Positions 9,088 to 54,640 of a stretch of 64,000 nt of DNA are shown in pieces. The notes under the pieces are model-generated. The model worked only from the letters and a program-made list of their open reading frames with translations, had not been told where the DNA came from and did no database searches. The translations under genes were made by a program, and so were the position numbers. Positions within the stretch are counted from its first letter, which is position 1; each line of letters begins with the position of its first letter. Source of the DNA: Miscanthus floridulus (Eukaryota > Streptophyta > Magnoliopsida > Poales > Poaceae); assembly GCF_019320115.1 (NCBI RefSeq), contig NC_089591.1, positions 22,608,502-22,672,501 on the forward strand, in the 5' to 3' direction.

Positions 9088-9343
9088 GCAATTTGGAGAA
9101 ATTGAGTTTGGCATGGTGGAGAAATCGTGTTCAATATTTTGGAGAAATCGTGTTTGGTAATTTGGAGAAATCGTGTTCGGCGATTTGGAGAAAACGCGTT
9201 CGATGATTTGGAGAAAATGAGTTTGGCGATTTTGAGAAAACAAGTTCGGTGATTTGGAGAAACCGTTTGGCGATTTGGAGAAATTGAGTTCGACACTTTA
9301 GAGAAACCGTTCGGTGATTTGGAGAAATCGAGTTCGGCGCAGT
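9088..9343. repeat. 23-bp minisatellite, about 11 units (unit A)
   Basis: Units of the type GCGATTTGGAGAAATCGAGTTCG run in tandem with substitutions and a few 21-bp variants. The array ends within about 10 bp of the tandem-duplication junction at 9350/9351. Copy at 20764-21019. Confidence 0.9.
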
Positions 9344-20763: not shown

Positions 20764-21019
20764 GCAATTTGGAGAAATTGAGTTTGGCATGGTGGAGAAA
20801 TCGTGTTCAATATTTTGGAGAAATCGTGTTTGGTAATTTGGAGAAATCGTGTTCGGCGATTTGGAGAAAACGCGTTCGATGATTTGGAGAAAATGAGTTT
20901 GGCGATTTTGAGAAAACAAGTTCGGTGATTTGGAGAAACCGTTTGGCGATTTGGAGAAATTGAGTTCGACACTTTAGAGAAACCGTTCGGTGATTTGGAG
21001 AAATCGAGTTCGGCGCAGT
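20764..21019. repeat. 23-bp minisatellite, about 11 units (unit B)
   Basis: Same as 9088-9343. Here it is followed by the undisturbed Tat spacer. Confidence 0.9.
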
Positions 21020-37455: not shown

Positions 37456-39046
37456 CTAAACTAAAGTAATAGTGTTAGACCCAAGGGTCGACTCAGCTCT
37501 ATTAATGGTAGGATTAGTAGGCTTAGTGGTCGCATCAGGCTCTATGATTGTTGGAGAAGTCCTAGGAGGCTCTGTATGCACTATTGTGGCATCACACGCT
37601 GAATCTAGCCCCTCAACCTGATTGGGCAGAGAAGGTCGATCAACTGCCTCATGAGCTAAAGCTGAACTCTTCTTATGTTTGACTATAGTAATACTAGCAC
37701 TAGGAGGTTTAGGCATCTCGTTCATTGGAGAAGCCCCGAGAGGCTCTGTATGTGTCCCCATGGCAGCTTGCACCTCGACCTGAGGGGGCGAAGAAGGTGG
37801 ATCACCTGCCTCATCAGAACCTAAAGCTGGCTTAGGTGTCTTGAATGTTGGAGAAGCCATGAGAGACTCTATATGTGCCTCCATGGTGACTTGCACCTTG
37901 ACCTGAGGGGGTGAAGAAGGTGGATCACTACCCTAATCAGGACCTGAAGCTAAACTCTGCTTATGTAGCGTCATCGCAATGGGTAACTCTGTGTGGACAG
38001 TTGTATTATTTGGACTAGTTAGATAACCAGCAATGGGGTTGACCTGACTACCACATTGCAACTGAAGCATCTAAAAGTCAAGGGGCTTAACCCCTATGGC
38101 ACTATATAGTTGATTAAAGCAACCAGTGAACACATTGCAGATCAGATCGATTTTTTGGCCTTGTAAGTTGATGGCCTCACAAAAAGCAGATGATTACTGG
38201 CTCATCTGCTCTTTGAGAAGGACCACACTCTCCATTTGCTTATCAATACTTGCTTTCAAACACCTCTCTTGTCATTCCATATGCTTCTAGTTTTCTTCTT
38301 GGCCGACAACTAGCCTAGCAAGTATCTATCCAAGCTCTGATAGTTGCTGAACGGACACTAGAGGCGGTCCCTACTTGGCTAATGTCTCTGTAGTAGGTGG
38401 AACATCATCCATCTATTTGTTAGCCACACCACTAGAGGATGACCCTCCCTCATCGTGGTCGTCTAACATAGGGTCGCGGTAGTCGCTGTCATTGGAGTCT
38501 AAATCTTGTATTTGTACATTCAAGATTCCTCCAATCTGAGACTGGTGCTCTACCTACCCAAGGGCTACATCCACTATTTCGTGTCTTTCTCTATCCTGTA
38601 TGGGTAATAGCTCTTGAACAAACCTAAGGGCATGCTGTCCACGATGATGATCGTCTAGACTTGCTGACATATAGGTCATAACCTCACTAGTCAACTCATT
38701 GTATAGTGGCCCATTCTTTTCAGAGTCAATCGTGCATAGCAGATAGCTAATGATGTGAGGGGACTCGTGCTGCCATCCAGTACTAATAGCATCAGCTATC
38801 ACATCCTCAATCTTAGATAAGAAAAAGTGTAAGAAGTCAAACTGCTCACCCCTCCATATTGATAGGAGTAGCCACTGTTGTAAGGTGGTCAATGACTCCC
38901 TGTTGCCACCATGAGGCAGGACTGTCTTCCTCAGAGCCATGTGTAGAATGTAAGCCTCTGGATGTAGTCTGTCCAGTGTATGCAATGAGCCATCAGTGAA
39001 GGGGTCCATGAAGAGCGGCTGAATCTCCTAGTCTGTAGGAAAAGTA
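37456..39046 (-). pseudogene. Transposon-type protein, 3' part (interrupted by the Tekay insertion)
   Basis: One minus-strand frame runs from the insertion site down to 37456 with about ten stops, most of them TAG. The first block (LHTLDRLHPEAYILHMALRK, VLPHGGNRESLTTLQQWLLL, FDFLHFFLSKIEDVI) resembles the grass 'putative plant transposon protein' type domain. The rest is a Pro/Ser/Glu-rich tail with two or three copies of a PPSSPPQVEVQ...MEAHIESL-like repeat. The frame is continuous with 53505-54342 if the target duplication is counted once, so the Tekay element split a single coding region. Confidence 0.55.
39042..39046. other. Target-site duplication, left copy (AAGTA)
   Basis: AAGTA immediately before the 5' LTR equals AAGTA at 53505-53509 immediately after the 3' LTR. 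Confidence 0.97.
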
Positions 39047-39559
39047 TGTAACACCCCCGGTGTTATTCTTGCCTAATTGCACTTGCATTTCATATTCATG
39101 AGCATCATTCATCAATTCATGAGCATATGTCACTTGAAACATGTGAAACATGACTTTGAAACAAATGTATCATTTCAAGTGTTTTCATCATTTCAGTACC
39201 TTTAGTGCTTGATTATTGTATGACCAATGTGTGATATAGCTAAATCTATTGTTAAACATCTTAGCTATGCTTAGAAAGTCATTAGGAACAATGTTCAAGT
39301 TGATCATTTTGCCCAATTAAGATTTCAAATCATGGTTTGACTTGTTTTGACCCTAGGACTTTTTGGTTTGACTGTTTAAAAAGTACCACTTGGAATGTTT
39401 GCATGTCTGAGCAACCTAAAGCAAAGTTGTAGGGAATTTAATTCTAAGCAACTTTCATTTTTGGTACATTTTTAAAAGAGGTCATTTTCTTGCTCAAAAT
39501 AATGTATGAAAGATGGCATTTTAAAAATTTCTTAAAAATCAATTGAAAAATTCCATTTC

Positions 39560-40410
39560 TATTTTTCTGGGCCGCCGCCTCGTTTTTGGCCTGCCAGCCG
39601 AAGCCGGCCCAGCGAGCTCCCGCGCGCCCCGCGCCTCGCCTCGCTCGGCCCAGCCCAGCACCGCGCCAGCCCGGCCTGCCTCCGCGCGCCGCGCCTTCTT
39701 CTCCCGCGCGCCGTGCCCGTCGCCGCGCCACGTCCCGAACGCGTCAGGCGACGCCCGCCGCGTGTCCGCCACGCGCCCGGCTAGCCCTGACCGCGCAGCG
39801 CACTGGCGGACTTGAAGAGGAGCGCGCCCTGCTGCCAGCCGCACGCGCTCGGCCTTCACTCCTGCCGCGCTGCCCTTTTGCTCCGCCCTCGCCGAGCGCC
39901 CGAGCTCCGCCCTCGCCGCGAGCCCGAGCTCCGCCGGCGTCAAACTCCCTCACCACCGAGCCATTCTTCAATTCGTCGCGCCCGCAGCTCCGCCCCGCCT
40001 CCCTTTTGCTCACGCTCGCGCTTGCTCCGCCTTCCGAGCCCTGGGTAAGCCTCCCCGCGTCTCGCCGCCGACGGCCATGGCGCCGCTGTGCACGGCCGCC
40101 GTGGAATCCGCCTTCCCTCTCCCCTCCAGCCTCGCCTAGCGACCCTACCGAGCTCTCCTTCTCCTCGCGCGTCTCCTGCGCTCGCTCGCTGGCGCTGCCG
40201 TGGCCGGAGACGGCCGCCGGCCGCTGGCCGAGCCCCGCCGTCGCGCCAGAGCGCGCTCCGGCATGGCGCTCTGCCTCGGCTGGCCAGGCCGAGCCAGGCC
40301 GGGGGCTGACGCCCTGATGGGCCGTCTCCTCTTCCCCGCGCTCGGGCTGCGCAGGCCGGCTGTGGCCGTGGGCCAGTTCCATTCCGCAGGCCGGCCCAGC
40401 AACACTTAAG
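39560..40410 (+). other. GC-rich, CpG-dense island inside the 5' LTR
   Basis: About 850 bp of very GC-rich sequence in an otherwise AT-rich LTR, with abrupt borders. Long overlapping open frames on both strands (for example 39586-40317 +, 39744-40382 -) are side effects of composition: low-complexity Ala/Pro/Arg/Ser. A GG|GTAAGCC donor-like site lies at 40047. It might be a promoter, a 5' UTR or captured host sequence; I cannot tell. Copy at 50125-50975. Confidence 0.7.
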
Positions 40411-41321
40411 CGAATTGTTTTCTATTTATTATTTGTTATTTGAAATCAAGAATAGTTTGAAAAATGTTTGGATGATCAAACTTGTTCCAAATTTGTTGAA
40501 ACAAAATTTGCTAGGTTCCTTATCACCAGATCTACTTGGGAAAAATAATGCATGTCATTTTTGGGATACTTTTCTGTAGAACTTTATTTAATCATGAATA
40601 TTGCTGATAACTTGAAAAATATGTAGAAAAATATATAGGTTTCAGAAAAATATGATTTCAAGTTTGTTAATCTTCTTGTGTCATGTACTCCTTAGGAAAA
40701 ATATATTTCATGCATGTGCTGTGGAAAAATTTTGAGGTGTAGTTCCAGCTCCTTTTATAACTGATTTTTGTTATTTTTGCTAGAGAGCAAACTTTGTATA
40801 AAACATGCATGTGGTAATTTTTGTACAGTCACTATAAGCTATTAAGAACTTAGGAAAAATACTAATTCTGTTGTTTGACACTTTTCATAGTACAAAGTAA
40901 TTTCATGCTCATTTTTATGCTATAGCTTGTCATTTTTGTGTAGGATGGTTTACTTATCCAAATGCCATGAAATTTTTATGGTAGTCTGTTTAGGGTGGTA
41001 GTATGCTACTGCAATTTTCTCAGATTTTTATGAGCATCAGAAATATAGGTTGCTATTCAAACCTGTTATTAACTAGGGTTTAGGCAAGTGTTGCTTTAAG
41101 GGTGATTAAGAAATTAGTAAGCTTTGGTGTATCTTTGAAGCATTTCATAAGATATGTTAACTTAACATATTAGTAGTAGAACAGAATGCAGTAGAGGACA
41201 TGTGCTTATAGTATAGTTTCTTGGATGATGTTGACTACCTTGTGTTTCAACATATCCATTGCATTCATCTCCTTCGATGCACCGTTTGCATAATCACTTA
41301 CGCGCATTGCATCATACAGGA

Positions 41322-41513
41322 TCGCAAACCGAGAACCCAGTCGTCATACCCGAGGAGCCCGAGGAGCAGCTCGAGGTGCAGCAGCAGGAAGTGCCAGAAG
41401 CCGACGAGGAGGACGTTGAGGAACTTCCGGAGTGCCCCGATCACCGTCCGAGCTCCTTCAAGAGAGGCAAGCCCCGGAGCATTTTTCTCCCGGTTTGCAA
41501 ATTAATTAATTAA
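41322..41513 (+). other. Acidic small open frame in the 5' LTR
   Basis: After an acceptor-like CATACAG the frame reads ENPVVIPEEPEEQLEVQQQ, then an E/D-rich stretch and a basic end (SSFKRGKPRSIFLP), stopping at TAA 41511-41513. Codon-like structure and strong charge bias suggest a real exon or its fossil. It is identical in the 3' LTR (51887-52078). Confidence 0.4.
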
Positions 41514-42407
41514 ATGCTTTACTTTAATTGATGCATTACGTTCAGGAGTTGTTTGCAACCGTTGCTGCATTATACCTTGTTTACCTTTGTTATACTATAT
41601 CCTTGTTACCCTGGTATCCGCAGTCGAGTCAATGCTTAGCTGGCTTAGACCGGTAGAAGTCGGGTGATTTCCTGTCACCTGCGAGCTATAGGTGGTTACC
41701 TGGATCTGCTTGGATGACTATGAAGTCATAGTATAACTAAGTGTTAAATGAAGTTGAGACCGGACGGAGACTTGCAGAGTTTTGAACTGTAGTGTTTCCG
41801 TCTGTGTCGATTAAGGACCGACCATTGTTGGGCCTCGAGTCATGTTGAACGCATGCCTTACATTTAGCTGGCCGGATAAAGTACCTTCCGACCGCGAAGC
41901 TGGGAGATTTTTCGGGCCGAGTAGATTGCCCGCAACGCACTGTACCGGAGCAGGTGTGGTAGGACACGGGGGCGGGATGATAAGACCAAAGTGCAGTCGG
42001 TCGGCCCCCGGGTACATGTGGTTCCTGGCAAACTCGAGATTCCTGGAAAGTTGACTCGGTGATCAATATCTCACTTTAGCGGGTGAGTGAGGTTTGTGTA
42101 AGGAATAAATCACCAGCTGGTTAGGAATCGATTCGAATCGCCATCGCTCCTGGATAGTGAGCACTTGACTTGAGTTACTTCATCGTAGTAAATGCTATGG
42201 AACACTTGGACGGTTATAGTGAATATGACAGTATGGAAATTGTTTAATGATCATTGGTTATCATTCTCTGCTTAATCACATGTTTACTCTAGCATAGGTG
42301 CAAATCTAGTTGACAGGTTAATAATAATTAACTTGGCAATAATGCTTTTAGACAGGTTCTTGAATTGCTAAAAATGCTTCTTTTTGCAAATGAGTCAGCT
42401 ACCCTAC

Positions 42408-42413
42408 TATAAA
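42408..42413 (+). promoter_or_regulatory. TATA box in the 5' LTR
   Basis: CTACTATAAAGCCC. Transcription from here would leave about 500 bp of R/U5 before the primer site. The GC island and the acidic frame would then lie in U3, upstream of the start. Copy at 52973-52978. Confidence 0.5.
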
Positions 42414-42941
42414 GCCCTTCATAATCCTTGGTGTCATTATTTTCGGTTATGTCGGGTAAGTCTGGCTGAGTACATTCTCGTACTCAGGGTTTTATTCCCA
42501 CTTGTTGCAGATGGGCAGATGTACTATGGCTACTGTATCAACTGCCTGTATCCTGCGATGGGTGATGCTTAGGACCATGGGCATGGTCATTCCTTACGTC
42601 TCATCTGATGCTTTTGTTGGAGATGATCATTAGCTGGCACTATATTTGAACTCCGTGTGAGTGTGTGTGGTTTTAAGCAAATGACTTCCGCTACTTTTTA
42701 TTCGAACTTGTTTTGTAATAACTATGTTTAAACTCTGATGTATCTGTTATGCAAACTTTTATGTAATATGTGATTGGTGACCGCTAAACTTAGTACGATC
42801 ATGGCTGGGACATGAGTTGGTTTGAAATCCTTCGTGATTTCACGGACTACCGGGTTATACGGGCTTAAGTTTGCTAAAGCGTCTGCGCTGGCGGATGATT
42901 TTCTTACTTAATTTCGTATAATTGGTCGGTTCTGTCACAGC

Positions 42942-42953
42942 TGGTATCAGAGC
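42942..42953 (+). other. Primer-binding site, initiator tRNA-Met
   Basis: TGGTATCAGAGC, two bases after the LTR end. It is complementary to the 3' end of plant initiator tRNA-Met, the usual primer of Tekay and many other plant Gypsy elements. Confidence 0.95.
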
Positions 42954-43200
42954 ATGGTTTAGCGTGTTACTGTTCACAAGTGTATTTAAAACAAAAAGGC
43001 ATTGGAAAACGTGATTTTAAAACTATAAAGTGTGCCAGTGATCATATCCTTTATGCCCAGTTAAGGACTTTAGGTGGCTTAATTAAGTACTGACTGGGGT
43101 TCTTGCATCATATTTCTCTTTCGTCGCTCATACGGCGTGCTATTGTATGAGTGCCACTTGTTTGAGTGGTAATGAATGGATCAATTGCCTCTACGCCTCG

Positions 43201-43206
43201 GTAAGT
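43201..43206 (+). promoter_or_regulatory. Candidate 5' splice site in the leader
   Basis: CTCG|GTAAGTGT is a near-consensus plant donor in the untranslated leader; a second, weaker one (TGCAG|GTACAT) is at 43475. With the acceptor-like sites at 43726 and 45077 they could give separate mRNAs for the two ORFs. Confidence 0.4.
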
Positions 43207-43715
43207 GTGAGTTGTGAGAGCATGATCGGATACACCGCCGATCTAGGGTGAATGCTTATATGATGCTGGAGTAATTACATGTTCTACGCATGTTTTACAA
43301 AGGTATCTCATGTATGGGTCTTCCGTCTGTGGAGGCGATGCCATCAATAGGACGATGGTTCGGGTAGTTACTACCGTTGTACACGTATCTGGGGATTCGT
43401 GTAGAGCGTGTAGATAAAAATTTTACTGCTTTTATGCATTCATTGGGAATTGGGCTGAAATGAATCTTCTGCAGGTACATAACAACGCTATCGTGTAGAA
43501 CGTATTAGCTACGTATTGAGAGAACGTTGTATGCCACCGAATTCGTCGTTAGAAATTATTTATTTCCTAAGTTTGTGAGAACGTACGACCGTACATACAT
43601 CATGTTACTTGTGCATCTCATTCATCTCATGCATACCTCCCCTTATAAATTGATTATCTCATTTTGATAAAAGTTGCATCACCTAAAATATGTTTCCCCG
43701 AAGTAATAAGAGAAC

Positions 43716-43726
43716 TTTTGCTACAG
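43716..43726 (+). promoter_or_regulatory. Acceptor-like site directly before the H3-tail ORF
   Basis: TTTTGCTACAG abuts ATGG. A polypyrimidine-CAG right at the start codon suggests that splicing removes the upstream in-frame ATG. Not proven by sequence alone. Confidence 0.4.
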
Positions 43727-44716
43727 ATGGCCCGCACGAAGCAGACCGCCCGTAAGTCCACCGGAGGAAGAGCACCCCGACGTCCGTTGGCCCTGAGGGA
43801 GCACCGCACCACGGACACCTTCTTGAGCGAGTTTGGCATGCCAACTTTGCTTTGGAGAGTGCTCCATGATGTGGGGTACCCAGAGGGTCAAGAGCCGGTG
43901 TACTCTTGGAATGAGAGCCAGTTAGCAGATGATGGACTTGCAGTGGTGGAGATCATGGTTCCTGCTCTCGGTGATGCTCCAGATTGGGATGGTTGGCATT
44001 TGGAGTTTGAGGGTCGCACTCCAGTTGAGGGTGCAGAGGGAGCAGCCTTCCGTGTCATCAGGGACATTATGAGCAGATTTCCCAGTGAGCTTGCAGCAGC
44101 TTTAGCTGGTACTTTTCCTAGGTATGATCCCCGCGATGCCATTTGGGTTCAGCCTGAAGGAAGCGCATTGGTCAGGGGTCCAGCTGAGGGACAGGCTAGC
44201 GACAACCAGGCAATGAGTGCTATGTTCGCCGCCATCAGGGCGTATGAGGGTCTTGAGAGTACCTACTGGACTTTGACTGGCTTGCGTAGTGAGGATAAGC
44301 TCAAAGGGAAGAAGCAGAAGAAGAGACAGGCACGAGCTATAGCTAGTTTGCAGGAGCAGTTGGCTGATATGAACTTACAGCGAGATCAGGCGGTTGAAAG
44401 AGGTGATAGAGCTATGCAGCAAGTGCATACGTTGACTCAAGCCAACAACAATGCAGACCGCATGATTGGACAGTTGGTTCAGGAAAGGAATGAAGCCTGG
44501 AACGCAAGAAACCTTCTGTTGCAGAGAGTCGATGAGCTAGAGGAATACAACGGCTACTTGCACGAGGAGTTTCACGCGCTCTACAATGGGGTTGGCCCAT
44601 ATGCTCCACCAAATGCCGCTGGCATGGACATCGACGACGACAACCAGAACGAGCCTGTAGTTTCACCTGGAGGCGATGGTGACGTCTCCGATCCCGACGA
44701 TGGTCCCGAGGAGTAG
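43727..44716 (+). CDS. Extra ORF of the Tekay element with a histone H3-tail N-terminus
   Basis: 329 codons. From the ATG at 43727 the protein reads MARTKQTARKSTGG, identical to the histone H3 N-terminus through G13, then R14 (for K), APR, R18 (for K), P19 (for Q), L, A. K4, R8, K9, S10 and R17, the sites of the best-known H3 tail marks, are kept. After residue 22 there is no histone fold. A region of about 170 residues follows (FLSEFGMPTLLWRVLHDVGY; VVEIMVPALGDAPDWDGWHLE), then a K/R patch (KGKKQKKRQAR), a coiled coil (about residues 200-285) and an acidic tail (MDIDDDNQN...DPDDGPEE). The frame is also open upstream to an ATG at 43664. I chose 43727 because it gives the free tail and is preceded directly by an acceptor-like TTTTGCTACAG. 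The function is unknown; a role in chromatin or in evading silencing is inference. Confidence 0.85.
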   Translation: MARTKQTARKSTGGRAPRRPLALREHRTTDTFLSEFGMPTLLWRVLHDVGYPEGQEPVYSWNESQLADDGLAVVEIMVPALGDAPDWDGWHLEFEGRTPVEGAEGAAFRVIRDIMSRFPSELAAALAGTFPRYDPRDAIWVQPEGSALVRGPAEGQASDNQAMSAMFAAIRAYEGLESTYWTLTGLRSEDKLKGKKQKKRQARAIASLQEQLADMNLQRDQAVERGDRAMQQVHTLTQANNNADRMIGQLVQERNEAWNARNLLLQRVDELEEYNGYLHEEFHALYNGVGPYAPPNAAGMDIDDDNQNEPVVSPGGDGDVSDPDDGPEE

Positions 44717-45061
44717 GCTAGTTGCCTTGCGCTAGTAACTAGGTCTTGTCGCGATGACCTTTCTTTTGTTGGCATGTAATCTATCGTATGTTGCTTCGAA
44801 CGTATGAGAATTGGCATGTGTTTGGAACTTGATTTTCGAATGCGATATCTGAACGCATAAAAAGTCCAGTGTATGTATGCTGGCAATGTGATTGTATGGA
44901 CGCGATGTTTGCCGTTTAAGTAACTCGATTAAGTGCTGTTGTTTTAATTGGAATTGCGATTGTTGTGCCTCTGTTTTTCTTGTATGAATTTATTCTCTCC
45001 AGTAAATTCAGTATGGCATAATTTTTCCCTCACTCGCAATTATTACAGCTTCACTCAATCA

Positions 45062-45077
45062 TACTTGTTGCTGAAAT
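45062..45077 (+). promoter_or_regulatory. Acceptor-like site directly before gag-pol
   Basis: TACTTGTTGCTGAAATATGCAG abuts the ATG of gag, the same layout as at the upstream ORF. Confidence 0.35.
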
Positions 45078-48000
45078 ATGCAGATGACAAACACTCGCCG
45101 AACCACGTATGAGGCCGCTGAGCCCGGTGCCAACGGTGCAGGGACCGGTGGTGGTGGTGGTGGTGGTGGAAACCACAGCAACAACAATGAACCTCCTCAT
45201 GAACCGCATTTGCCACCTCCTCCCCCGTTTACCCCCGAAATGTTCCTCGCACAGCTACTCGGGAGTCAGCGCAACACAGAACAATCTCAGAAGAACATGG
45301 AGGATCTTCTCAGAACCATCGCCAACAACGTTCAACGTGGTAACAATCAAGGTGGTGGCATGGGAGTGAACCAATATAGCAGCTTCAAAGATTTCATGGA
45401 CACCAGGCCACCAGTCTTCAAGGAAGCAACAGAGCCACTTGATGCTGAGGAATGGATCAACACGATGGAAGATAAATTCCGTGTGTTGAGAATGACTGAG
45501 GTGCTAAAAACGGAGTATGCTGCACTTCAATTGCAAGGACCGGCGGGAATGTGGTGGAAGCACCATCGCACCACCTTCCCTCCAAATGCTCAGATTTCTT
45601 GGAGAGAGTTTGCTGAGGCCTTCCGCGGAGTCTATATTCCACCCGGGCTGACAGAGATGAAGTTGGGAGAGTTTCTGGCATTGAACCAGGGTACCAAAAC
45701 CGTGACGCAATACCTGCATGCTTTCAACAACTTATGTCGCTATGCTCCCGACATGGTTGACTCAGATGCTAAGAGAATAGCCAGTTTTAAGAGGGGTCTC
45801 AATCCAAAAATGATGAAGCATGTTGGTACCAACAACCACGTCAGATTCAACGATTTCATCAGTGACTGTCTGAAGCAGGAGAAGAATAACAACGCCAGCA
45901 CCGCAGCCAAGACACGCAAGAGAGCCTTCGAAGGTGGGCCGTCTCAAGCTAGAGCACCTATGGGAGGTCGTCCTCCTTATCGCCCATCGGCACCTGGCGC
46001 TAGATTCAGGCCACCTCAGCCAAGAAGTCAGAATTTCCGTGGACCTCAAAAGCCGTACAAGATGGCAGTACAGCCCAACAAAGCAGCCGCAACTGCGGTA
46101 CAAGGCAGTTCCAAGGGAGCTGTGGGATCTGCCGGGACAGTGAGAGGACCCTGCTATAACTGCGATCAACCCGGTCATTTCTCGAGGTTTTGTCCATACC
46201 CGCCCAAGAAGAAGCAGCAGACTTATAATGCTAGAGTGCACAGTACAACAGTGGATGAAATTCCAGAGGGAGAGCCCGTCACTGCTGGTAAGTTTACTGT
46301 CAATGAAAACCCTGCAGTTGTTCTATTTGATTCTGGATCATCGCATTCTTTTATGAGTCAAGCATTTGCACAGAAACATGAACAACTATGCACAGAATTG
46401 GGCTATGGTTACCGTATAAGTTCAGCAGGGGCTGATGTTTTGACCAACCGGATGGTTCGAGGGGCAACCCTTGAATTAGGTAGCAGGAAGTTCCGAGTGA
46501 ACTTGATAGTTATGCCTGGGTTAGTCTTGGATGTCATTATAGGGATGAATTGGATGAAGGATTGGGGAGCAGTCATAGATACTGGAGGTCGAGTACTTAC
46601 CCTTAAGGATCCCCTGGGTGAGGGTACTTTCCAAGTACCATTGCCTCGAAGAACAGACCTTATAAGTGTTACATGCGCTACGGCAGTCACTCCTATTCAT
46701 CAGATTCCGGTAGTGTGTGAATTCCCAGACGTATTCCCGGATGAGCTACCTGGTCTTCCGCCAGATAGAGAGATTGAGTTTGGAATTGAGTTAGTCCCCG
46801 GAACAGCTCCGATTTCAAGGAGGCCCTATCGGATGCCTCCCGACGAGTTAGCTGAGCTAAAGAAGCAATTAGAAGATTTGTCAAAGAAGGGGTTTATTCG
46901 GCCAAGCAAGTCTGAATGGGGATGTCCAGCTTTGTTTGTGAAGAAAAAGAAAGAGGGCACGTTGAGAATGTGCGTAGATTATAGGCCACTCAATGCTGTG
47001 ACCGTCAAAAATAAGTATCCCTTGCCACATATTGATGTCCTGTTTGACCAATTATCCAAGGCCAAGGTGTTCTCAAAAATAGATTTGAGATCCGATTATC
47101 ATCAGATCAAGATTAGGCCACAGGATATACCAAAAACTGCATTTTCCACCAGATACGGGTTGTATGAGTATCTTGTCATGTCTTTTGGCTTGACAAATGC
47201 TCCCGCATATTTTATGTTCTTGATGAATACAGTTTTCATGCCAGAATTGGATAAGTTTGTGGTAGTATTCATCGATGACATTCTGGTGTACTCCGAGAAT
47301 GAGAAAGATCACGAAGAGCATCTGAGAACTGTCTTGACCAGACTTAGAGATCATCAACTGTATGCTAAGTTTAGCAAATGCGAATTCTGGTTGAAGGAAG
47401 TTCCTTTCCTTGGTCACATTCTGTCAGAGAATGGAGTTTCAGTCGATCCAAGTAAGGTGCAAGAAGTTATGAATTGGAAAACACCGACCTCAGTTCCTGA
47501 GATTAGAAGTTTCTTAGGACTAGCGGGTTATTACCGTCGCTTTATACCAGATTTCTCAAAGATCGCCAAACCGATGACGAGTCTCCTACAGAAGGATCAC
47601 AAGTTTTTGTGGACAGAGGAGTGTGAAGCAGCTTTCCACACTTTGCGGAAACTGTTGACCACTGCTCCTGTTCTAGCACAACCGGATATAGAGAAGCCAT
47701 TTGATGTGTTTTGCGACGCATCAAAGACTGGATTGGGTTGTGTTCTTATGCAAGAAAGGAGAGTCATAGCTTATGCATCACGTCAATTGAGAAAGCACGA
47801 GGTCAACTATCCAACACATGATCTTGAACTTGCTGCAGTTGTGCACGCCCTAAAAATTTGGAGACATTATCTACTTGGTAATGTGTGCAATGTTTTCACG
47901 GATCACAAGAGTCTTAAGTATATCTTTACCCAACCAGAGCTAAACATGAGACAACGTAGATGGTTGGAATTGATCAAAGATTACAACCTGAATGTGCAAT

Positions 48001-49616
48001 ATCATCCTGGTAAAGCCAATGTAGTGGCAGATGCTTTGAGCAGAAAGTCACATTACTTGAATGTGCAGCCATTACTTGAAGATGGATTCGATCTAATGCA
48101 TCCTGCTGTGTTAAATAGTATTCAGATTAGTTGCTCTTTGGAGAGTAAGATAATAGAAGGTCAGAAAACTGACAAGGGGATATTCCACATCAAAGAGAAA
48201 ATAAAAGACAAGCCGTCTCAACACTTTAAAGTGGATGAACAGGGTGTGTTGTGGTTTAACAACCGTCTTGTGGTTCCCAAGGATCGAGAGCTTAGGAATA
48301 AACTCATGGATGAAGCTCACCTGTCTAAGCTATCTATCCATCCTGGAAGTAGTAAGATGTATCAAGAACTAAGATCTCGCTATTGGTGGACCAAAATGAA
48401 GAAAGAAATTACAGCATATGTTGTCAGATGTGACACATGTTGTCGAGTGAAAGCCATTCACATGAAACCTGCTGGTATGTTGCAACCTTTATCAGTCCCT
48501 AGTTGGAAGTGGGACGATATCAGTATGGATTTTATCACGGGTTTGCCCACTACTCAAAAAGGACATGATTCGATTTGGGTAATTGTGGACCGTCTTACCA
48601 AGACCGCTCATTTCTTGCCTGTCAAAACAGATTATCGACCACCTCAATATGCCGAGAAGTATATCGCAGAAATTGTGAGGTTGCATGGTATACCCAAGAC
48701 CATAATATCTGATAGAGGCTCATAGTTCACGGCTCATTTTTGGGAACATTTACACAAAGGCTTAGGAACTAGTTTAATTCGCAGTACCGCTTATCATCCT
48801 CAGACAGATGGTCAGACTGAACGAGTAAATGCTGTTTTGGAGGATATGTTGAGAGCCTGTGTATTGTCTTCCAAGGGATCATGGGAGTCATGGTTACCGT
48901 TAGCTGAGTTTTCTTATAATAATAGCTATCAAGAAAGCATCAAGATGGCCCCATTCGAAGCTTTATATGGTAGAAAATGTAGAACACCATTGAATTGGAT
49001 CGAGCCTGGTGATAGAAGGTATTATGGCATTGACTTTGTAGAAGAAGCCGAGAAGAAAGTTCATATTATTCAGCAGAATATGAAAGCTGCCCAATCACGT
49101 CAGAAAAGCTATGCAGACAAAAGAAGGAGACCCCTTGTGTTTGAAGTTGGTGATTATGTTTATCTGAAAGTCACACCAATGAAGAAGAAAAGGTTTGGAA
49201 TCCGAAGAAAGCTTGCCGCAAGATTCGTAGGACCATACAAGATCTTGGAACGAAGAGGCCCGGTAGCCTACAAGTTAGAGTTACCTGAGACAATGAGTAC
49301 CGTTTTCCCAGTTTTCCATGTATCACACCTCAAGAAATGTTTGCGTGTTCCGGAGGAAAGAATAGAACCTCGAGGTATCCAACTCAAATCAGATTTGGTG
49401 TATCGTGAACAACCAGTCCGAGTGTTAGACACTAAGGAACGTGCTACTCGGAATAGTGTGGTAAAAACTTACAAGATACAGTGGGATCATCATGATGAGG
49501 GAGATGCAACTTGGGAAACAGGAGAGTATCTACAAAAAGCTTATGAAGAATTTTATAACAAATGGTTCGTAACCCAAATCTCGGGACGAGATTTTTATAA
49601 GGAGGGAGGGCTGTAA
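45078..49616 (+). pseudogene. Tekay gag-pol polyprotein with chromodomain, one nonsense codon
   Basis: A single frame of 1,512 codons broken once, by TAG at 48723-48725 (codon 1216), where the integrase motif DRGSQ has Gln. Order: gag with Gly-rich and Pro-rich start and capsid-like block (about 85-260); zinc knuckle [14 protein letters not shown] (359-372); protease DSGSS (D418); RT with FIDDIL (DD 733-734); RNase H FCDAS (D880); integrase HHCC finger (H1081, C1118, C1121) and DDE triad D1151, D1212, E1248 with the 35-residue D-E spacing; GPY/F-like end; chromodomain (about 1445-1500, VLDTKERATRN...YKIQWDHH...ATWE). The stop TAA lies inside the 3' LTR. RT has DLRSDYHQ where DLRSGYHQ is usual. 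Without readthrough, the product ends before the last catalytic residue. Confidence 0.95.
49599..49610 (+). other. Polypurine tract of the Tekay element
   Basis: AAGGAGGGAGGG, one base before the 3' LTR. It primes plus-strand synthesis and at the same time codes for the last residues of pol. Confidence 0.93.
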
Positions 49617-52600
49617 CACCCCCGGTGTTATTCTTGCCTAATTGCACTTGCATTTCATATTCATGAGCATCATTCATCAATTCATGAGCATATGTCACTT
49701 GAAACATGTGAAACATGACTTTGAAACAAATGTATCATTTCAAGTGTTTTCATCATTTCAGTACCTTTAGTGCTTGATTATTGTATGACCAATGTGTGAT
49801 ATAGCTAAATCTATTGTTAAACATCTTAGCTATGCTTAGAAAGTCATTAGGAACAATGTTCAAGTTGATCATTTTGCCCAATTAAGATTTCAAATCATGG
49901 TTTGACTTGTTTTGACCCTAGGACTTTTTGGTTTGACTGTTTAAAAAGTACCACTTGGAATGTTTGCATGTCTGAGCAACCTAAAGCAAAGTTGTAGGGA
50001 ATTTAATTCTAAGCAACTTTCATTTTTGGTACATTTTTAAAAGAGGTCATTTTCTTGCTCAAAATAATGTATGAAAGATGGCATTTTAAAAATTTCTTAA
50101 AAATCAATTGAAAAATTCCATTTCTATTTTTCTGGGCCGCCGCCTCGTTTTTGGCCTGCCAGCCGAAGCCGGCCCAGCGAGCTCCCGCGCGCCCCGCGCC
50201 TCGCCTCGCTCGGCCCAGCCCAGCACCGCGCCAGCCCGGCCTGCCTCCGCGCGCCGCGCCTTCTTCTCCCGCGCGCCGTGCCCGTCGCCGCGCCACGTCC
50301 CGAACGCGTCAGGCGACGCCCGCCGCGTGTCCGCCACGCGCCCGGCTAGCCCTGACCGCGCAGCGCACTGGCGGACTTGAAGAGGAGCGCGCCCTGCTGC
50401 CAGCCGCACGCGCTCGGCCTTCACTCCTGCCGCGCTGCCCTTTTGCTCCGCCCTCGCCGAGCGCCCGAGCTCCGCCCTCGCCGCGAGCCCGAGCTCCGCC
50501 GGCGTCAAACTCCCTCACCACCGAGCCATTCTTCAATTCGTCGCGCCCGCAGCTCCGCCCCGCCTCCCTTTTGCTCACGCTCGCGCTTGCTCCGCCTTCC
50601 GAGCCCTGGGTAAGCCTCCCCGCGTCTCGCCGCCGACGGCCATGGCGCCGCTGTGCACGGCCGCCGTGGAATCCGCCTTCCCTCTCCCCTCCAGCCTCGC
50701 CTAGCGACCCTACCGAGCTCTCCTTCTCCTCGCGCGTCTCCTGCGCTCGCTCGCTGGCGCTGCCGTGGCCGGAGACGGCCGCCGGCCGCTGGCCGAGCCC
50801 CGCCGTCGCGCCAGAGCGCGCTCCGGCATGGCGCTCTGCCTCGGCTGGCCAGGCCGAGCCAGGCCGGGGGCTGACGCCCTGATGGGCCGTCTCCTCTTCC
50901 CCGCGCTCGGGCCGCGCAGGCCGGCTGTGGCCGTGGGCCAGTTCCATTCCGCAGGCCGGCCCAGCAACACTTAAGCGAATTGTTTTCTATTTATTATTTG
51001 TTATTTGAAATCAAGAATAGTTTGAAAAATGTTTGGATGATCAAACTTGTTCCAAATTTGTTGAAACAAAATTTGCTAGGTTCCTTATCACCAGATCTAC
51101 TTGGGAAAAATAATGCATGTCATTTTTGGGATACTTTTCTGTAGAACTTTATTTAATCATGAATATTGCTGATAACTTGAAAAATATGTAGAAAAATATA
51201 TAGGTTTCAGAAAAATATGATTTCAAGTTTGTTAATCTTCTTGTGTCATGTACTCCTTAGGAAAAATATATTTCATGCATGTGCTGTGGAAAAATTTTGA
51301 GGTGTAGTTCCAGCTCCTTTTATAACTGATTTTTGTTATTTTTGCTAGAGAGCAAACTTTGTATAAAACATGCATGTGGTAATTTTTGTACAGTCACTAT
51401 AAGCTATTAAGAACTTAGGAAAAATACTAATTCTGTTGTTTGACACTTTTCATAGTACAAAGTAATTTCATGCTCATTTTTATGCTATAGCTTGTCATTT
51501 TTGTGTAGGATGGTTTACTTATCCAAATGCCATGAAATTTTTATGGTAGTCTGTTTAGGGTGGTAGTATGCTACTGCAATTTTCTCAGATTTTTATGAGC
51601 ATCAGAAATATAGGTTGCTATTCAAACCTGTTATTAACTAGGGTTTAGGCAAGTGTTGCTTTAAGGGTGATTAAGAAATTAGTAAGCTTTGGTGTATCTT
51701 TGAAGCATTTCATAAGATATGTTAACTTAACATATTAGTAGTAGAACAGAATGCAGTAGAGGACATGTGCTTATAGTATAGTTTCTTGGATGATGTTGAC
51801 TACCTTGTGTTTCAACATATCCATTGCATTCATCTCCTTCGATGCACCGTTTGCATAATCACTTACGCGCATTGCATCATACAGGATCGCAAACCGAGAA
51901 CCCAGTCGTCATACCCGAGGAGCCCGAGGAGCAGCTCGAGGTGCAGCAGCAGGAAGTGCCAGAAGCCGACGAGGAGGACGTTGAGGAACTTCCGGAGTGC
52001 CCCGATCACCGTCCGAGCTCCTTCAAGAGAGGCAAGCCCCGGAGCATTTTTCTCCCGGTTTGCAAATTAATTAATTAAATGCTTTACTTTAATTGATGCA
52101 TTACGTTCAGGAGTTGTTTGCAACTGTTGCTGCATTATACCTTGTTTACCTTTGTTATACTATATCCTTGTTACCCTGGTATCCGCAGTCGAGTCAATGC
52201 TTAGCTGGCTTAGACCGGTAGAAGTCGGGTGATTTCCTGTCACCTGCGAGCTATAGGTGGTTACCTGGATCTGCTTGGATGACTATGAAGTCATAGTATA
52301 ACTAAGTGTTAAATGAAGTTGAGACCGGACGGAGACTTGCAGAGTTTTGAACTGTAGTGTTTCCGTCTGTGTCGATTAAGGACCGACCGTTGTTGGGCCT
52401 CGAGTCATGTTGAACGCATGCCTTACATTTAGCTGGCCGGATAAAGTACCTTCCGACCGCGAAGCTGGGAGATTTTTCGGGCCGAGTAGATTGCCCGCAA
52501 CGCACTGTACCGGAGCAGGTGTGGTAGGACACGGGGGCGGGATGATAAGACCAAAGTGCAGTCGGTCGGCCCCCGGGTACATGTGGTTCCTGGCAAACTC

Positions 52601-53504
52601 GAGATTCCTGGAAAGTTGACTCGGTGATCAATATCTCACTTTAGCGGGTGAGTGAGGTTTGTGTAAGGAATAAATCACCAGCTGGTTAGGAATCGATTCG
52701 AATCGCCATCGCTCCTGGATAGTGAGCACTTGACTTGAGTTACTTCATCGTAGTAAATGCTATGGAACACTTGGACGGTTATAGTGAATATGACAGTATG
52801 GAAATTGTTTAATGATCATTGGTTATCATTCTCTGCTTAATCACATGTTTACTCTAGCATAGGTGCAAATCTAGTTGACAGGTTAATAATAATTAACTTG
52901 GCAATAATGCTTTTAGACAGGTTCTTGAATTGCTAAAAATGCTTCTTTTTGCAAATGAGTCAGCTACCCTACTATAAAGCCCTTCATAATCCTTGGTGTC
53001 ATTATTTTCGGTTATGTCGGGTAAGTCTGGCTGAGTACATTCTCGTACTCAGGGTTTTATTCCCACTTGTTGCAGATGGGCAGATGTACTATGGCTACTG
53101 TATCAACTGCCTGTATCCTGCGATGGGTGATGCTTAGGACCATGGGCATGGTCATTCCTTACGTCTCATCTGATGCTTTTGTTGGAGATGATCATTAGCT
53201 GGCACTATATTTGAACTCCGTGTGAGTGTGTGTGGTTTTAAGCAAATGACTTCCGCTACTTTTTATTCGAACTTGTTTTGTAATAACTATGTTTAAACTC
53301 TGATGTATCTGTTATGCAAACTTTTATGTAATATGTGATTGGTGACCGCTAAACTTAGTACGATCATGGCTGGGACATGAGTTGGTTTGAAATCCTTCGT
53401 GATTTCACGGACTACCGGGTTATACGGGCTTAAGTTTGCTAAAGCGTCTGCGCTGGCGGATGATTTTCTTACTTAATTTCGTATAATTGGTCGGTTCTGT
53501 CACA
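49612..53504 (+). repeat. 3' LTR of the Tekay element
   Basis: 3,893 bp, the same length as the 5' LTR. It contains a GC island (50125-50975), the acidic frame (51887-52078) and TATAAA (52973-52978). Three differences seen from the 5' LTR (50913, 52125, 52389), all transitions. Confidence 0.97.
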
Positions 53505-53509
53505 AAGTA
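53505..53509. other. Target-site duplication, right copy (AAGTA)
   Basis: Matches 39042-39046. Confidence 0.97.
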
Positions 53510-54640
53510 CCTCTAGCCTTGCTGTGACGTAGAGGAAGACCATCTCCATAGACTATCTAGTGGAGCTTCTTGTTTGAAGTGTCACCCCTGAGGAGTTGTT
53601 CTAGGTGGTTATAGGATATTCGCTCTGGCCGACCATCGAGCATAAAGCCAATGAAGTCATGCTTTGGATGAATCCACACTATTGCATAGAATTGACGCAC
53701 CTAGCTTATCACAATTTGATCAGCCTCACTGAAATGGAGAACAAAGTCTGGGAACCGCTCAAAGAGGGGCCAGATGGGTATACCAGCTGCTCTCTCAAGC
53801 TCATCCCAACCAAGTATCCTTTGGTCAACTAGTGTCATCCCACTAGCATGGTAGCTCCTGAAGAAACTCTCCTGAGTCACAGTTTAGAACTATGATTTTG
53901 TGCTAGGCTCTTTGAGGAGTGGAAACCAGAACTCAATATCACAGAACCTGATGCTCCATATCTTCTTTGAATTGTAATACTAAAAGTCATAGAACTAAAC
54001 CACCACTTTCTTTCTCACAATATTACTTCTCCTCATAGCACCATTGGCATACACCAAACCTCCTCGACTGCTCCTTGTACCACCATTGGCAGACATCAAA
54101 TTACCTCCACGACTGCTCCTCGTACCACCAATTATGGCACACATCAAATTACCTCCTCGACTGCTCCTAGTACCACCAATTGTGGCACACATCGAACCTC
54201 CACGAGTGCGAGCACCTACGCCCCCATGAGTAGCTATAGATTTGATCCAAGAAGGTGCAAAGTGACTAGTCTGGTTTTTGGAGCGAAACTCAGTCATTTG
54301 CTGTAGTTGTTCCTTAGTGAGCTCCTCCTCCCTAAGTTTCATTTCAGCACTCTCCTCACACTGCTACTATCGACGGGCCATTTGAGTCCGCCTATGAGAA
54401 TTCCTGGACTCCAAGGCTAGCATAGCTTTGGTTGCTTCTTCCTCGGCCTCTTGGATACTATCTGCCTTCCTCTGCCTGTTCCTAGGCTGTGGTGGTGCTT
54501 GTTCCTCTGCTTCAGGGACACTGCGAACCTTCCTCTGGCTCTTTCTGGGCTGTGGGGGTGCTTATTCCTCTACTTCTCGAAGAATGGTTGCCTGCCTCTG
54601 GCTCTTTCTAGGATGTGGTAGTTCTACCTGCTTTGATTTA
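53505..54640 (-). pseudogene. Transposon-type protein, 5' part (interrupted by the Tekay insertion)
   Basis: Minus strand. The start is uncertain. An N-terminal Arg/Lys/Glu-rich region contains two QRKRRK-like repeats (PRKSQRKVRSVPEAEEQAP) around 54430-54600. Then KLREEELTKEQLQQMTEFR, a GGTRSSRGGNLM repeat in about four copies (54040-54200), and a conserved block with WDELERAAGIPIWPLFERF and FYAIVWIHPKHDFIGFML lead to the insertion site. Stops are mostly TAG. The frame crosses the Tekay insertion without a shift and continues at 39041. A TE-associated function is likely; the exact family is not certain. Confidence 0.55.

Follow-up and report, generated by a model that had tools for sequence, protein, structure and literature searches.

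The window, a 64,000-nt stretch of DNA, contains an LTR retrotransposon whose extra open reading frame (ORF0) opens like the tail of histone H3. The questions raised by this locus are where the tail came from, whether it has been kept as protein, and what a retrotransposon might gain from it. ORF0 begins with MARTKQTARKSTGG, which is identical to H3 residues 1-13 (13/13 from A1, no mismatch), and after the ATG at 43727, the first of its frame, it reads MARTKQTARKSTGGRAPRRPLALR, with R in place of K14, K18 and K23 and P in place of Q19. H3 residues 1-13 followed by K14R, K18R and Q19P had been given in a preliminary description of this DNA and were read in the sequence as described there. Using phmmer against PDB sequences, histone H3 was matched over ORF0 residues 1-23 (E 3e-5), and the ORF0 DNA was matched to the host H3 locus L079 over 43 nt at 95.3% identity (E 1e-14, computed against 11 fetched host loci). 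Chance resemblance to H3 was ruled out by these two matches. The histone fold core was looked for in ORF0, and no histone Pfam match was obtained at E up to 1.

Layout of the element and of the ORF0 protein

The features are listed below with their coordinates in the window, strand (where assigned) and basis.

39047-53504: LTR retrotransposon, 14.5 kb, from its LTRs and target-site duplication
39042-39046 and 53505-53509: target-site duplication AAGTA (5 bp), ends read directly
39047..42939, +: 5' LTR, 3893 bp, from LTR-vs-LTR blastn with ends read directly
42942..42959, +: primer-binding site TGGTATCAGAGC..., presumably of the initiator-Met tRNA type, from the sequence adjoining the LTR end
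43201..43211, +: predicted 5' splice site CCTCG/GTAAGTGTGAG (slash at the junction), 526 nt before ORF0, from its motif
43718..43726, +: predicted 3' splice site TTGCTACAG, adjoining the ORF0 ATG
43727..44716, +: ORF0, 329 aa and stop, before gag-pol
43727..43798, +: H3-tail segment, Met and H3 residues 1-23 (24 codons), matching the first coding exon of intron-bearing host H3 genes
43838..44110, +: dsRBD-like domain, residues 38-128, from predicted structure
44201..44590, +: long single helix or coiled coil, residues 159-288, predicted helix
44591..44713, +: acidic C-terminal tail, residues 289-329, from composition (12 D/E, no K/R)
45074..45083, +: predicted second 3' splice site AAATATGCAG, adjoining the gag ATG at 45084
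45084..49616, +: gag-pol frame (gag, zinc knuckle, protease, RT, RNase H, integrase), from Pfam matches
48723-48725, +: in-frame TAG in pol, read from the sequence
49416..49562, +: chromodomain at the end of integrase, PF00385 match below the Pfam cut-off, cage residues largely missing by eye
49612..53504, +: 3' LTR

The two LTRs differ at 3 positions in 3893 bp (blastn). These differences and the AAGTA duplication on both sides indicate a young element, as had been claimed, and at a substitution rate of 1.3e-8 changes per site and year they correspond to roughly 30,000 years. The element had also been called complete, which holds for its layout; the in-frame TAG at 48723 means that this copy is not intact. 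Pfam also matched the integrase zinc domain, and the chromodomain match to PF00385 (E 9.8e-4) scored 19.4 bits with the Pfam cut-off at 25.1. The element appears to be Tekay-type, a label assigned on layout, and it has the Retrosat2/RIRE-group traits of LTRs >3 kb (3893 bp) and an ORF0 upstream of gag-pol. Its LTR begins TGTAACACCC, which agrees at 9/10 positions with the terminus of Retrosat2 and RIRE8, and ends GGTTCTGTCACA, which differs from theirs; the LTR termini of both are given as TGTCACACCC...GGGCGTGACA in the accessible text of PMC3485330. Elsewhere in the window, a tandem repeat array with 69/23-bp units occurs twice, at 9088-9337 and 20764-21013, about 11.7 kb apart, and the two arrays possibly mark the two LTRs of another element. 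Further tandem arrays (units of 48 and 63 bp) were found at 54025-54193 and 54463-54618, no more than 1.2 kb past the 3' LTR.

The ORF0 protein behind the tail was modeled from 49 homologous sequences (pTM 0.42); this model replaced a poor single-sequence model with a mean pLDDT of 53. In the predicted model, residues 38-128 take up an a-b-b-b-a fold resembling a double-stranded RNA-binding domain (dsRBD), and the helix behind it has a pLDDT of 94-98 over residues 191-280 and lower values before. The best Foldseek match of the model had an E of 0.035, and a viral structure library gave nothing at E 0.001 or better. No dsRBD Pfam match was obtained with ORF0 at E up to 1, or with the 49 homologues at E up to 0.1 among 25 of the 38 families listed, and the profile of the 49 homologues against PDB sequences gave four weak matches at E up to 1, with no dsRBD among their names. 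In dsRBDs, RNA binding depends on lysines of the KKxAK type where helix 2 begins. At this position, the window protein has TPVEGAEGAA, where the RNA-binding lysines are missing by eye, and the third position of the stretch varies among homologues (V/K/R/F/W/E). The dsRBD likeness is structural only, with the predicted look of a protein-binding rather than an RNA-binding domain. The preliminary description of this part as non-histone, with a coiled coil and an acidic end, stands, and its "unknown domain" is now replaced by the predicted dsRBD-like fold at residues 38-128. In the homologue P0136, an H3-like tail is followed almost at once by the coiled coil, the dsRBD-like domain being absent, and the homologue P0016 is fused upstream to unrelated-looking sequence. 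For the homologue P0061, the database lists Pfam PF27921.1, which may be a newer Pfam family for ORF0; the Pfam version used here gave no such match.

Origin and spread of the tail

The limits of the H3 likeness were compared with the exons of host H3 genes, which include both intronless and intron-bearing genes. Eight intron-bearing genes were read, and in each of them codon 24 (K23) is the last of the first coding exon, with the junction AAG/GT; the next H3 match begins at residue 17-24. In ORF0, too, the likeness to H3 extends no further than codon 24, at which all four subfamilies defined below most often have R23. Because the likeness ends where host exon 1 ends, the capture of a single exon is likely. 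At S10 and G12, ORF0 most often uses TCC and GGA, the codons of 8/8 intron-bearing genes, whereas the three intronless genes read have TCG and GGC. Immediately in front of its ATG, ORF0 has a CAG resembling a splice acceptor, as have two of the eight intron-bearing genes. As judged from these exon limits and codons, the tail is likely one exon captured from a host H3.3-type gene. Homology of the ORF0 leader to sequence upstream of host H3 genes was ruled out using blastn, in which the likeness to H3 genes starts only 1 to 3 nt before the ATG, with one additional 12-nt match at E 0.54.

The tail is found well beyond this copy. With the tail as the query against the genome, the best 150 of 4007 candidates were all 22/22 identical, and with the full ORF0 as the query, the best 122 of 12733 candidates all spanned residues 1 to 327-329. 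The distant homologue P0015, 41% identical to ORF0 and with a recognizable tail, was searched against its own genome (best 123 of 12811 candidates), which yielded three further subfamilies, B, C and D; these were separated from the subfamily of the window (W) by eye on the residues behind the tail. The 60 loci read (W 30, B 24, C 4 and D 2) are best matches of these two tail-including full-length queries (30 of 122 and 30 of 123) and carry a mild bias for that reason. The tail is present in 30/30 fetched B/C/D loci, decayed to a varying degree, and is common to at least four ORF0 subfamilies in this genome. The mild bias was checked with an independent sample of 20 places, which were matched by the tail-less query P0020 and absent from the list of the tail-bearing query; at least seven more such places exist. 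Seventeen of the 20 carry the tail, all with K9, and tail loss in the other three is read as deletion or rearrangement. In the public protein set, 12 of 136 homologous proteins have the tail, two of them without the PTLLW landmark, and all homologues with 35 or more residues upstream of that landmark (10/10) have it. A further 29 of the 43 PTLLW-bearing homologues start exactly at the internal Met38 and are uninformative on the tail rather than tail-less. The tail in other family copies, for which the preliminary description had asked, was found in at least 150 places with the identical 22 residues, in four subfamilies and in 17/20 independent places, and a single-copy accident was ruled out by the many copies and the four subfamilies.

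The predicted splice sites around ORF0 are likewise widespread. The 5' splice-site motif, with its listed variants, is present in 53/60 loci across the four subfamilies, and an exact TTGCTACAG directly precedes the ORF0 ATG in 53/60 loci; the independent sample has it in 13 of its 17 tail-bearing places. The donor list and the gag junction were examined in 13 of the 60 loci, of which 10 have ATATGCAG before the gag ATG and three had none that was found. If spliced as predicted, the single donor and the two acceptors would yield one message for ORF0 and another for gag-pol. The leader contains 21 ATGs, of which the predicted splice would skip 16 and leave an in-frame ATG at 43147 that adds 18 residues before the tail, so it is possible that the tail is buried behind these residues in the product of a spliced RNA. 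Recognition of K9 would be expected to survive such burial better than recognition of K4. An 18-residue leader kept as a peptide was rejected by eye on the comparison of L009 with L054, in which all four differing codons of the 18-codon stretch change the amino acid, the DNA of the stretch being well kept. The leader at 43080-43211, also found in L039-L068, is far better kept between subfamilies by eye than the silent sites of ORF0, though noncoding, and may hold an RNA signal, e.g., for packaging.

Residues kept and selection on the tail

Conservation was counted across the 12 tail-bearing homologous proteins. A1, A7, K9, S10, P16 and L20 are kept in 12/12; R2, G12 and G13 in 11/12; T6, T11 and R17 in 10/12; R8 in 9/12; K4 in 7/12; and Q5 in 4/12. 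K4 is R or W in five of the homologues and Q5 is altered in eight. Lysine is found at positions 14, 18 and 23 in none of the 12, with R, C or Q at position 14 and H or R at 18. At the locus level, K9 and S10 are kept in 60/60 and lysine at 14 occurs in one, although the AAG codon is less exposed to methylation-driven change, which makes the count across lineages better evidence than the 60 loci. K at 14 was read in single old copies such as L063 and L081, and the independent sample includes one tail, out of 17, with Y at position 10. From these counts, the tail looks like an H3K9 substrate that is not acetylatable at 14, 18 and 23 and in which K4 is optional. Retention of K9 with loss of K14 and K18, as originally proposed, extends to the homologues and to position 23. 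A role focused on H3K4 is not supported, with K4 replaced in 5/12 and Q5 in 8/12 as opposed to K9 kept in 12/12.

For the selection tests, the 60 loci were codon-aligned over ORF0, and L001-L008, which had been picked by tail identity, were excluded. Between W and B, the tail (H3 1-17) gave a pS of 0.51 and a pN of 0.04 (ratio 0.08), and the pN/pS elsewhere in ORF0 was 0.43 in the dsRBD-like part and 0.49 in the coil. Per-site medians, which set aside the private decay of single copies, were pN 0.00 and pS 0.48 over the 17 codons of the tail and pN 0.31-0.35 in the rest of ORF0. The amino acids of the tail are fixed between W and B while its silent sites differ, which sets it apart from the neutral rate that the preliminary description had raised as the test of its idea. 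Non-overlapping 17-codon windows with a pN as low as that of the tail numbered 0/304 for W-B, 0/293 for W-C and 1/295 for W-D. In the B-C, B-D and C-D contrasts, windows as low as the tail or lower numbered 62/290, 48/295 and 71/281, and the tail is not singled out as the most conserved window, which may be due in part to the decay of these copies and to the CGN-rich tail. Within subfamily B, the tail has a dN/dS of 1.24, as expected for dead copies, and this value likely reflects decay after insertion and not the descent of active copies. Constraint on the tail between W and the other subfamilies is well supported by these alignments, and the contrasts among B, C and D do not single it out. 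Since the silent sites of the tail differ between subfamilies, the constraint is not on the RNA, and RNA-level rather than protein-level constraint was ruled out.

Possible functions and known systems

Old copies carry a mutation pattern that bears on the host pathway involved. CHG methylation by CMT3 is driven by H3K9me2, and the C in CAG is a CHG site. The 30 old B/C/D loci (L039-L068) hold 118 in-frame stops; TAG accounts for 102 of them, and at 82 of the 102 TAG positions CAG is the most frequent codon in sister copies. Just one stop, a TAA, stands at a CAA position, in a background of 57 CAA and 398 CAG codons in the 24 B loci. This pattern is likely the footprint of CHG-methylation mutation on old copies, and TAG stops at CAG positions suggest that the elements have likely been under the same H3K9me2/CMT3 system that the tail resembles.

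Taken with the residue counts, the ORF0 protein, which begins with an altered and likely exon-captured H3 tail (1-23), is tentatively read as a many-armed H3K9 decoy that weakens silencing, a reading that we place somewhat short of an even chance. Several copies of the tail would be bundled by the 130-residue coiled coil, SUVH-type enzymes would methylate K9 in these bundles, and the methylated tails would hold CMT3, SUVH or other K9-methyl readers off chromatin. Since positions 14, 18 and 23 hold R or H, the tail would not be acetylatable there. The decoy reading would account for the core around H3K9 and the missing acetylation sites, as well as for the coiled coil and the pathway targeted; we infer all of its functional steps. 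The dispersed, not centromere-bound, distribution of elements of this type (accessible text of PMC3485330) counts in its favor. Docking on Dicer or DRB proteins is a further possibility for the dsRBD-like part. The fuller proposal, in which a K9-methylatable, non-acetylatable, exon-captured tail in bundles and a Dicer/DRB-docking domain let one protein jam both the H3K9me2-CMT3 loop and the small-RNA pathway, is considered unlikely, if worth stating.

The preliminary description had also suggested that the tail is bound within the element's own machinery. Reading by the element's own chromodomain was rejected by eye, as W is the sole one of the HP1 cage residues (Y24, W45 and Y48) found there; a lack of Y24, and usually of Y48, is described for the group II chromodomains found in plant elements (accessible text of PMC3350952). 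The same missing cage lends some weight to a tether, in which a K9-methylated tail bound by host heterochromatin readers carries the particle or integration complex to chromatin in place of the cage-less chromodomain. Conservation of the tail and of K9 and the single cage W kept in the window chromodomain (PMC3350952, in part) agree with a tether, but elements of this type are described as dispersed and not centromeric (PMC3485330, in part), and among sunflower elements, the Tekay group that has a 5' extra ORF inserts in chromosome arms, with a pericentromere bias in groups that have none (PMC11728184, in part). The sunflower extra ORF has no sequence similarity to the grass ones according to the same source, which tempers the arm-insertion point. 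The tether ranks second after the decoy and is itself judged rather improbable. Use of the H3 tail as an importin-binding signal for the ORF0 protein or a Gag complex is in keeping with 8 K/R among the 24 residues of the segment and with the predicted nuclear location of other grass 5' extra ORFs (PMC11728184, in part); a basic signal would need no constraint on A7, K9-S10 or G12-G13, and the basic residues behind vary, which leaves nuclear import a poor candidate.

Mimicry aimed at H3K4 readers, with A1-R2-T3-K4 binding PAF1 or CHD1-type proteins in the manner of influenza NS1 (PMC7958646, in part), finds A1 kept in 12/12 and R2 in 11/12 homologues, but the replacements at K4 and Q5 in those homologues go against it, as does its need for a free N-terminus when the predicted splicing could add 18 residues; we regard it as quite improbable. 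That the tail is a passive relic, an H3 exon captured by accident and without function of its own, would suit the exon-shaped segment, the neutral-like dN/dS of 1.24 within B and the unremarkable tail in the B-C, B-D and C-D contrasts. The nil median amino-acid change over 17 codons between W and B at a pS of 0.48, and a tail still recognizable in P0015 at just 41% identity to ORF0, make such a relic very unlikely. Least credence of all is given to an Aurora-kinase substrate, in which S10 beside R8-K9 would be the key residue and link the protein to mitotic chromatin. S10 is invariant in 12/12 homologues and 60/60 loci, but the conservation of G12, G13 and P16 would go unexplained and Y stands at position 10 in 1/17 tails of the independent sample.

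If the decoy reading is true, the conserved H3 tail gives ORF0 a concrete and testable target, the host H3K9 methylation system. The element would hold a rare long copy of a histone tail in a plant transposable element, likely obtained by exon capture and not a four-residue look-alike, and the tail, with K14, K18 and K23 replaced and K9 kept, would be a natural ligand for working out the residue needs of plant H3K9 enzymes.

Among known systems, VANC proteins bind DNA and belong to a DNA transposon, and influenza NS1 also binds dsRNA. ORF0 itself is already published, without an established function, and was described in rice elements. Grass elements with an ORF0 or 5' additional ORF include Retrosat2, RIRE3, RIRE8, FRetro3, ZmSat2 and SorSat2 (PMC3485330 and PMC11728184), and as far as the accessible text of PMC3485330 goes, no plant other than grasses was found to have the ORF0 known from rice, so that the element type points to a grass as the source of the window. 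Like the window element, grass Tekay-type elements have an extra ORF before gag-pol and LTRs >3 kb (PMC3485330 and PMC11728184, in part), and the extra-ORF proteins of maize and sorghum show a weak structural likeness to a DRBM protein (PMC11728184, in part), comparable to the dsRBD-like fold predicted in the window. Compared by description only, the published grass ORF0s differ, since their descriptions mention neither an H3 tail nor exon-like limits or conservation of one (PMC3485330 and PMC11728184). The word "histone" is absent from the main texts of PMC3485330, PMC11728184, PMC7264820 and PMC13317346, and the ORF0 H3 tail was not reported in the literature searched, which covered titles and abstract starts of the best-ranked papers, with a minority of subscription papers included.

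Host gene pieces in a plant LTR element are shared with Bs1 and other gene-capturing LTR retrotransposons; Bs1 holds pieces of ATPase, xylan endohydrolase and glucanase genes (PMC13317346, in part), whereas the window ORF0 holds one exon in a high-copy family with several subfamilies. The orchid Ty3/gypsy elements with an AlkB RNA demethylase are a further case of an extra ORF acting on a host modification system, AlkB (PMC12786077, in part) being an enzyme domain and the window tail a putative substrate mimic. With the VANC proteins of Arabidopsis VANDAL transposons, ORF0 would share the proposed class of a transposon protein that counters epigenetic silencing, although VANCs are described as sequence-specific and a histone-like part is unmentioned in the abstract starts (PMC5735166 and PMC10398659). 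Influenza A NS1 is, like ORF0, a parasite protein with an H3-tail motif, formed by four residues (ARSK) near the C-terminus in NS1 (PMC7958646, in part) and by about 23 H3 residues at the start of ORF0. The ORF0 tail further differs from NS1 in its likely capture as an exon and in a conserved core around K9 and not K4. Judged by its motif, an H3-like stretch in a non-histone parasite protein, ORF0 is a candidate for the class of histone mimics.
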